Source: Bacteroidales bacterium (GTDB lineage: Bacteria > Bacteroidota > Bacteroidia > Bacteroidales > JAADGE01). Taken from it: 53,381 bases of DNA. Position 1 is the stretch's first letter; every line of letters begins with the position of its first letter. The notes under the pieces are model-generated. The model made no database searches and was not told where the DNA came from. It was given only the letters and a program-made list of their open reading frames with translations. Positions 22,390 to 53,381 of the stretch are shown here, piece by piece. The stretch covers positions 1 to 53,381 of the forward strand of contig JAIORQ010000007.1 in assembly GCA_021108035.1 (NCBI GenBank), written 5' to 3'. A program made the translations under genes and the position numbers.

Positions 22390-22425
22390 AATAATTTTTT
22401 TTGGATTATAAAAAGTTAATATTAA

Positions 22426-22487
22426 CCCACGACTTCAGTCGTGGGAGATTGATAATCAGCAAGATAATATTAACCGTTTTAACGGTT
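22426..22487. repeat. REP-like composite palindrome A
   Basis: Palindrome 1 is CCCACGACT-TC-AGTCGTGGG (22426-22445). A 26-nt spacer contains TGATAATCAGCAAGATA (22450-22466). Palindrome 2 is AACCGTT-TT-AACGGTT (22472-22487). It ends 13 bp before the transposase ATG. The 17-nt spacer core is repeated exactly in copy D at 53345-53361 (reverse strand). Confidence 0.85.
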
Positions 22488-22500
22488 TAAATCATATAAT

Positions 22501-22932
22501 ATGGCACATTCCAAAGTGAAAATATGGGTACATGGTATTTTAGGTGTGAAAAACCGAAAAAAATTAATTGAGAATAATATTGAAAATAAAATTCATAATA
22601 TTATAAAGAAGCAATTTATTGATATGGGTTGTTATGTAGAAGAAATTAACGGTACTACAGATCATGTTCATGTAATATTTTTGTTAAATCCCCAAAGAAC
22701 TGTAAGCGATATTTTTAAACAAGTTAAAGGTGCTGTATCACATGAAATTAATTCTACAAATTTAATAAAGGAAAAGTTTTCGTGGCAAGTTGGATACGGA
22801 GGTTTCTCTATCAGTGAATCAAAGGTTGAAGAAGCTAAAAATTATGTTCTGAAACAAAAACAACATCATAAAAAAATGACTTTTAAAGAAGAATATGATA
22901 AGTTTGTAGAACTTTATGGTTTGAAAACTTAA
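22501..22932 (+). mobile_element. tnpA: IS200/REP-associated tyrosine (Y1 HUH) transposase
   Basis: This is an intact 143-residue Y1 transposase. It has the HUH metal site HVH (residues 55-57, in a TTDHVHVIF segment), the catalytic Tyr at about 115 in NYVLKQKQHHKK, and a C-terminal TFKEEYDKFVELYG typical of the IS200-like family. Such enzymes cut and join single-stranded DNA at hairpins. There is no tnpB. It is flanked within 15 bp on the left and immediately on the right by matching composite palindromes (A on the left, B inverted and C on the right), which are the likely substrates. It lies between moxR and the ostA-like gene and interrupts that cluster without breaking a reading frame. Confidence 0.88.
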
Positions 22933-22935
22933 ATA

Positions 22936-22993
22936 AACCGTTAAAACGGTTTATCTTTTTATGTGATTTATTACCCACGATTAAAATCGTGGG
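22936..22993. repeat. REP-like composite palindrome B (inverted, variant arms)
   Basis: It lies in the opposite order to A: AACCGTT-AA-AACGGTT (22936-22951), a 22-nt spacer, then CCCACGATT-AA-AATCGTGGG (22974-22993). Relative to A, C and D, the ACT/AGT ends of the second stem are ATT/AAT, so both arms changed and pairing is kept. It begins 4 bp after the transposase stop. Confidence 0.85.
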
Positions 22994-23021
22994 TTAGTAT
23001 TAAAAAAGAGATGTATATTAA

Positions 23022-23080
23022 CCCACGACTTCAGTCGTGGGAGTATATACAAGAAATTAATCATAACCGTTTTAACGGTT
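23022..23080. repeat. REP-like composite palindrome C
   Basis: It has the same orientation as A: CCCACGACTTCAGTCGTGGG (23022-23041), a 23-nt spacer unrelated to that of A, and AACCGTTTTAACGGTT (23065-23080) running into TTTTAAT. It ends 12 bp before the ostA-like start. The last hairpin plus T-run could also act as a weak terminator. Confidence 0.85.
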
Positions 23081-23092
23081 TTTTAATAATAT

Positions 23093-53323: not shown

Positions 53324-53381
53324 AACCGTTAAAACGGTTTATGCTATCTTGCTGATTATCACCATCCCACGACTGAAGTCG
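53324..53381. repeat. REP-like composite palindrome D (inverted, cut by window end)
   Basis: AACCGTT-AA-AACGGTT (53324-53339), a 26-nt spacer with TATCTTGCTGATTATCA (53345-53361), then CCCACGACTGAAGTCG up to the window end. In reverse complement the spacer shares 17 identical bases with copy A and has the same length. No transposase is visible at this site. Confidence 0.8.

Follow-up and report, generated by a model that had tools for sequence, protein, structure and literature searches.

A Y1 transposase gene bracketed by two-hairpin units

The window, that is, the whole stretch of 53,381 nucleotides that was analysed, contains a transposase gene, tnpA, lying within a nest of palindromes. 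Two stems recur in this nest, stem A (CCCACGACT/AGTCGTGGG, 20 nt) and stem B (AACCGTT/AACGGTT, 16 nt). Each hairpin was given a direction from its loop, TTCA or TTTA being noted as > and TAAA or TGAA as <. The features are listed below.

22416-22425, + strand: TTAATATTAA, directly 5′ of A1; it ends in the foot TTAA (YAR rule)
22426-22445, + strand: hairpin A1 (A>), loop TTCA (palindrome search)
22472-22487, + strand: hairpin B1 (B>), loop TTTA (palindrome search)
22501-22932, + strand: tnpA, Y1/HUH transposase of 143 amino acids, intact open reading frame (PF01797, 79 bits)
22936-22951, - strand: hairpin B2 (B<), loop TAAA on the + strand (palindrome search)
22974-22993, - strand: hairpin A2 (A<), CCCACGATTAAAATCGTGGG, 2 mismatches (palindrome search)
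23022-23041, + strand: hairpin A3 (A>), loop TTCA (palindrome search)
23065-23080, + strand: hairpin B3 (B>), loop TTTA (palindrome search)
53324-53381, - strand: truncated fourth unit without a gene, B< at 53324-53339 followed by an A< cut by the contig end

Read by loop polarity, the locus has the layout A>B>-tnpA-B<A<-A>B>. In the middle unit B comes before A, and the loops confirm this inversion. The original prediction had described an intact HUH transposase with an HVH motif and a tyrosine at about position 115, bracketed by three two-palindrome units with internal spacers of 22-26 nt. Both descriptions are borne out: the protein carries DHVH (H55, H57) and Y115, the A-to-B spacers of the three units measure 26, 22 and 23 nt, and the palindrome nest around tnpA is real. 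Three A palindromes were found in the window as compared to none in 100 shuffles, and four B palindromes as compared to a shuffle mean of 0.49 and a maximum of 3. The arrangement of the locus is not due to chance. Folded as single strands, the three units gave z values of -5.4, -6.0 and -5.8, and both hairpins formed in every one of them; for the inverted dimer at 22935-23081, z was -9.4. Inverted REPs that can fold together, as expected of REPINs, are present in the forms B<A<-A>B> and B<A=B>. The feet of the three units are TTAA, TTAA and CTAA, and GTAG is found at none of them. At gathering thresholds, no Rfam family was detected in the window or in 11 loci.

Class assignment of the transposase

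With respect to the two affiliations considered in the original prediction, TnpA passed the NCBIfam IS200 model NF033573 (67.3 bits, cut-off 55) and stayed below the cut-off of the RAYT model REP_Tyr_transpos (24.3 bits, cut-off 80). The solved structures matched by its sequence are those of transposases, including that of ISHp608. Its motifs are DHVH, WQ and YVLKQKQHH (Y115---Q119--HH), and residues W95, Y115, Q119 and H123 are invariant in all 34 aligned TnpA homologues. The Y---NP motif of class-2 RAYTs is absent, Q being found at Y+4, as are Y[IV]ENQ and W[TS], the motifs of subclass 1.1. In the passages of Quentin et al. 2018 (PMC6006769) that deal with it, subclass 1.2 of TnpA-Y1 is characterized by DH[IV]H, WQ and Y---Q--HH and by a median length of 148 amino acids; its table entry reads Cyanobacteria and Bacteroidetes, low copy, REP 'no', and the subclass is described as generally lacking typical IS200 end structures. 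Judged by its motifs, TnpA is a member of subclass 1.2, with which it shares DHVH, WQ, Y---Q--HH, a length near 148 amino acids, low copy number and occurrence in Bacteroidetes. By the same sequence tests it is not a class-2 RAYT, and we withhold this name because two defining tests, the Y---NP motif and the REP_Tyr_transpos cut-off, fail. The trait 'no REP nearby' given for subclass 1.2 in these passages does not apply here: cognate two-hairpin repeats flank tnpA, and the palindromes recur in the genome. In the open-access literature, PMC6006769 was the sole match for TnpA/HUH 'subclass 1.2', and no paper on REPs of this subclass was found.

Including tnpA, five complete Y1 genes were counted in the window genome, whose assembly is incomplete (95% complete). 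Identity of tnpA to the remaining four is 31-35%, and no near-identical second tnpA was found in this assembly. A multicopy IS200 element, the family against which the original prediction was to be weighed, was rejected, as tnpA has no near-identical copy in this assembly and its flanking hairpins are inverted.

The cassette as an insertion and the grammar of its units

In the window genome, the cassette lies at the junction between a MoxR-type ATPase gene and an OstA-like gene. The same junction in 12 congeners (G001-G012) consists of a short spacer without these hairpins, and in another one (G013) it holds the left A-B unit and the start of tnpA only. Since the spacer is short and hairpin-free in 12 of the 13 other congeners and a remnant is found in the 13th, the cassette is an insertion, and the tnpA cassette itself can be gained and lost.

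The layout A>B>-tnpA-B<A<-A>B> was also observed between other neighbour genes in G005 (TnpA 65% identical) and in G118, a member of another family (48%). G005 has an additional B<A< far to the left, and its B< copies are imperfect. With at most one mismatch, the A pattern was present in five of the 21 relatives searched (6 places in G005, 3 in G004, 6 in G013, 18 in G018 and 31 in G118; controls 0). In G018 the units are dispersed, yet the best TnpA match is just 34% identical.

The 57 stretches around A and B matches were scanned, and A>B> pairs were sought in six genomes with spacers of 14-35 nt, B being required in the > sense. This gave 89 pairs that are not independent, as many are copies of a single element and symmetrical A= units were read from either side; the observed spacers of the pairs range from 17 to 28 nt. 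In all 89, the three bases 5′ of A form a YAR foot (background 0.081 per trinucleotide). The classical REP foot GTAG is present in 10 of the 89, all from G118. When the B> requirement was dropped, the loop directions of A and B agreed in 43 of the 44 pairs in which both loops are directional. TCAATAG also precedes A in four G118 units, and by eye no TIRs were seen around several units of this genome. In G018, elements whose inverted ends resemble GTTCTATTCCCTAATAGTGTGAT were seen by eye to enclose gene-less A>B>...B<A< arrangements, of opposite order (L157-L168).

Hairpins beside relatives of TnpA

The collection was scanned with three orthologs as query, the alignment of 34 TnpA proteins being too diverse; the 80 named loci used here are the best 80 of 98 candidates in GTDB genomes. 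Among the 78 loci with enough flank, a hairpin scoring at least 12 was found within 120 nt upstream of the gene in 37 and downstream in 44 (47% and 56%); of 147 control genes taken from these loci, 6 and 14 (4% and 10%) had one. The p-values of this excess are overstated, because the contigs of G005 and G118 recur as L202 and L207 and Chryseobacterium contributes 15 loci. At a stricter score of at least 14, 40 of the 78 loci lacked hairpins both upstream and downstream within 120 nt. Considering hairpins within 110 nt with a score of at least 11 in the 80 loci, the upstream loops comprised 26 >, 1 <, 1 symmetrical and 17 other, and those of the first downstream hairpin 25 <, 2 >, 1 symmetrical and 23 other. 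Further annotation of 22 loci showed a similar layout with other stems, for instance in Neomarinimicrobiota (L249) and Chryseobacterium (L217, L246), some B hairpins being undetected. The association of hairpins with tnpA might simply be coincidental or result from common descent of a few loci, and many of the 80 loci are indeed related as stated above. However, control genes from the very same loci have few hairpins, and the stems differ between lineages while the layout remains constant. We regard this explanation as having a negligible probability.

Algoriphagus provides a counter-example with respect to dispersal. The palindrome of the local tnpA was found at 3, 6, 3 and 1 places in four Algoriphagus genomes, 10 of these 13 places being at the tnpA locus (3 of 3 in G242, 5 of 6 in G243 and 2 of 3 in G244; the one place of G245 is elsewhere). 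As the copies are mostly at tnpA, large-scale scatter is not universal. The same palindrome had no place in seven genomes of other lineages, showing the hairpins to be specific to their own tnpA lineage.

Units in Chryseobacterium

In Chryseobacterium, the palindrome ACGGGCTTTAGCCCGT (at most one mismatch) was found at 6-28 places in all 13 tnpA-bearing genomes searched, as compared to 0-1 for the reversed control. At least one A>B> unit obeying the strict pattern was present in 33 of 43 Chryseobacterium loci. The loci examined, tnpA loci included, contained 122 distinct units, and the units listed are 64-71 nt long. Their edges are sharp: with the stem cores fixed by the search pattern, information content climbs ten bases before the core (WTCAATAGRAA) and drops past AAAACYTA, and the sequence beyond these edges is AT-rich and little conserved. 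At the window locus, TTAATATTAA, compared by eye, resembles the TCAATAG edge of other lineages. A terminator-like run of T follows A, and no TIRs were seen by eye around the Chryseobacterium units. The outermost base pair of A covaries between C-G and T-A, being of Watson-Crick type in 115 of the 122 units versus 71.5 expected; the outer positions of B showed no covariation in the same 122 units. Passages of PMC3733652 and PMC2817692 name no such Chryseobacterium repeat.

The number of palindrome places was then compared between genomes with and without a tnpA ortholog, defined by a best E below 1e-50. Among 88 genomes, three with tnpA fragments were set aside, and copies at the tnpA locus were counted. 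The median was 13 places in the 42 genomes with the ortholog versus 6 in the 43 without (p 1e-4, a kinship-blind value). At least four places were found in 42 of 42 and in 28 of 43 genomes, respectively. Of the 42 genomes, 41 have one copy of the ortholog and G240 has two. The surroundings of the ortholog are largely syntenic: the upstream neighbour is shared by 29 of 30 loci and the downstream one by 26 of 30.

Orthologous sites were sought directly; an earlier empty-site search had been swamped by the units of tnpA cassettes. At one site represented by 26 spacers, A and B are recognisable in 17, some of them degenerate (by eye). At this same site remnants are found in L381, L394, L396 and L397, and other sequence in L389, L390, L392, L393 and L395. 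Three further sites gave 16 spacers without an intact unit, most of which had been picked for short or split matches and were therefore likely to be unit-less; L418 was left unaligned. Among these 16, L417 carries a degenerate unit, and a deletion has apparently joined A to B in L412 and L413. In L402, L405 and L406 a gene occupies the corresponding place. No pair with near-identical flanks, which would give a base-exact empty site, was present among the orthologous Chryseobacterium sites read. Other repeat-like inserts were seen in the Chryseobacterium spacer of L389, L390, L392-L395 and L397, such as GTCATTGCGAGGAGCGAAGCGACGAAGCAATCTC in L394, and this spacer looks as if it were a shared landing site.

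These data bear on the idea that the locus is an IS200-type insertion sequence or a decayed cassette of this kind, A and B being the left and right end hairpins and the scattered units minimal non-autonomous derivatives. TnpA shares protein family and hairpins with IS200/IS605 elements (subclass 1.1; IS608, ISDra2), and it exceeds the NF033573 cut-off. A and B have a common loop polarity, like left and right IS end hairpins, both edges of the unit are conserved, and the cassette is an insertion. However, IS200/IS605 elements are multicopy, whereas tnpA has no near-identical copy in the window genome and its Chryseobacterium ortholog is almost always a single gene at a shared place. The Y[IV]ENQ and W[TS] motifs of subclass 1.1 are missing, and tnpA stands outside the A-B unit, not between its two hairpins as in IS200/IS605. 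In IS608, the end hairpins have one polarity on both sides of tnpA. Here, the nearest flanking hairpins are inverted where their loops show polarity (26 > vs 1 < upstream, 25 < vs 2 > for the first downstream hairpin), and such inverted flanks speak against an ordinary IS200 element. Overall, it appears unlikely that the locus is an IS200-type insertion sequence or its decayed cassette.

Copies elsewhere in the window genome

With at most two mismatches, the A pattern was found at 22 places in the window genome, as compared to 0 for the reversed-pattern control. Three of these are at tnpA and 19 are spread over 14 sites without tnpA. The original prediction, which depended on the unit not being confined to the two sites seen in the window, therefore holds on this point. 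The B pattern was found at 29 places with a control of 10, so that B alone is weaker evidence. At five further sites, B is present alone, or A is interrupted or cut by a contig end; those at contig ends could be the two parts of a single site.

By eye, 13 of the 14 gene-less A sites lie within TIR-bounded, MITE-like elements (C76 is the exception, and in C92 one end is visible). One sort of carrier has B<A=B> inside CTGCATTATTCA...TGAATAATGCAG. In another, represented by five near-identical copies, B<A<A>B> is enclosed by GGCTCTATTTAATGAAATTGTTG inverted repeats, and an 8-bp target duplication (TTGATTTT) accompanies one of the copies. In a third sort, A>B> is found inside an element with GRCTGTGTGAAAA-like ends. 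Since the A sites are mostly in MITE-like elements, the scatter in the window genome is by itself no proof that TnpA is the mover.

It could accordingly be argued that the palindromes are cargo of DDE-type MITEs, or terminators, that stand beside tnpA by chance, TnpA having no role. The TIR-bounded elements and the 8-bp duplication would fit the first version, and the T-run after A in Chryseobacterium the second. Against both, lineages with other stems retain the same arrangement around tnpA, neither a MITE nor a terminator needs the foot and polarity rules, and units are found beside tandem, divergent and convergent genes alike (by eye). Moreover, the Chryseobacterium units and several of G118 have no TIRs by eye. 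We therefore hold this explanation to be quite improbable. A plain terminator was rejected because the foot and polarity rules are unneeded for it and because units also lie beside tandem and divergent genes; a riboswitch-like RNA was considered and rejected as well.

Regarding the carriers themselves, the units at 53324-53381 and in L001, L004, L005, L006 and L010-L014 are inside several different TIR-bounded MITE-like families; REP-like units as MITE cargo look unusual. In contig C44 of the window genome (L041, L201) and at the starts of C49 and C80 (L042, L043), the A palindrome is split in its loop by a DDE-type element. This element encodes a DDE_Tnp_1_6/DUF772 transposase, has GAGACTGTGTGAAAAC ends and is presumably IS1182-like. 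In L008, another palindrome hosts a MITE with ends similar to GAGACTGTGTGAAAAC.

A REPtron-like reading of the locus

Overall, the locus is probably REPtron-like, with a resident Y1 nuclease-transposase of subclass 1.2 and its own bipartite REPs. In favor of this reading, the layout is kept at diverged tnpA genes, the foot is found in every pair and the loop polarity in nearly all. The Chryseobacterium units have sharp edges, their number is higher where the ortholog is present, and orthologous sites occur with and without a unit. Several results count against it. The gene-less A sites of the window genome are in TIR-bounded elements that other transposases could move, Algoriphagus has few copies and most of them at tnpA, and many Chryseobacterium genomes without an ortholog still have at least four places. 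About half of the surveyed loci are hairpin-less at the stricter score, the outer pairs of B do not covary, the B pattern is weakly specific, and G018 has units together with a distant TnpA match only. The REPIN/RAYT idea of the original prediction thus survives in part. The single-copy tnpA, the inverted flanking units, the gene-less copies and the presence or absence of units at orthologous sites agree with it; the class of the protein and the MITE-like surroundings of most gene-less A sites in the window genome do not.

According to the REPtron-like reading, the repeat is a bipartite REP of about 60-70 nt composed of a YAR-footed hairpin A, a spacer and a different, shorter hairpin B of equal loop polarity. 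These units flank tnpA in inverted orientation; elsewhere they stand alone or are paired as inverted dimers, either B<A<-A>B> or, in collapsed form, B<A=B>. In transiently single-stranded DNA, TnpA may bind the folded unit, on one strand only, through loop and foot. Tyr115 would then cut at the conserved outer edges, and the unit would be moved or copied to new intergenic sites. According to a 2021 study (PMC8266576), single-stranded REP, but not inverted REP, is recognised by the TnpA-REP of E. coli, which cleaves at a CT dinucleotide located on either the 5′ or the 3′ side of the structure. By analogy, one strand of the A-B unit should be the substrate of the present TnpA. The TCAATAG left edge and the AACYTA right edge are the best candidate cleavage sites.

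With the class-2 REP/RAYT systems (REPtrons of E. coli and Stenotrophomonas; REPINs), the locus has in common a single-copy Y1 gene with inverted palindromic flanks, repeats that are scattered, intergenic and lineage-specific, and a short foot 5′ of the stem. The scatter in the host genome that is characteristic of RAYTs is observed here, but hardly so in Algoriphagus. The differences are that class-2 RAYTs have Y---NP where TnpA has Y---Q--HH, that the unit here has two different stems, unlike class-2 REPs, and that the foot is YAR instead of a fixed GT[AG]G. Copy numbers also differ, with 4-40 places in each of the 42 ortholog-bearing Chryseobacterium genomes as compared to about 600 in E. 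coli K12, the figure quoted in PMC8266576.

The data point to a REP-type system in subclass 1.2, a branch listed without REP in the table of the 2018 survey (PMC6006769), and they speak to the 'no REP' entry of the family classification. A broader proposal, which we make tentatively and hold to be possible rather than likely, is that subclass 1.2 TnpA of Bacteroidota and some other phyla represents a third REP system, apart from class-2 RAYTs. The unit might then be a minimal single-strand transposon of about 65-70 nt, with A as its left and B as its right end, moved in trans by a domesticated transposase; the shared polarity and the sharp edges fit such ends. If true, this third system would be an intermediate form between IS200 elements and REPs. 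The REP-like system described here belongs to a branch near the IS200 proteins, and it bears on how REPs spread and on the route by which a transposase of IS200 type turned into a resident processor of REPs. With definable left and right ends, its repeat also offers a simple substrate for tests of single-strand REP transposition, in cultivable Chryseobacterium.

Three other Y1 genes of the window genome (L016, L017 and L018; contigs 16, 69 and 98) have nearby palindromes of other sequences, as seen by eye. In L021 and L022 (contigs 52 and 92), Y1-like domains lie in frame inside very long stop-free reading frames, in which N6-methylase-like motifs were recognised by eye.
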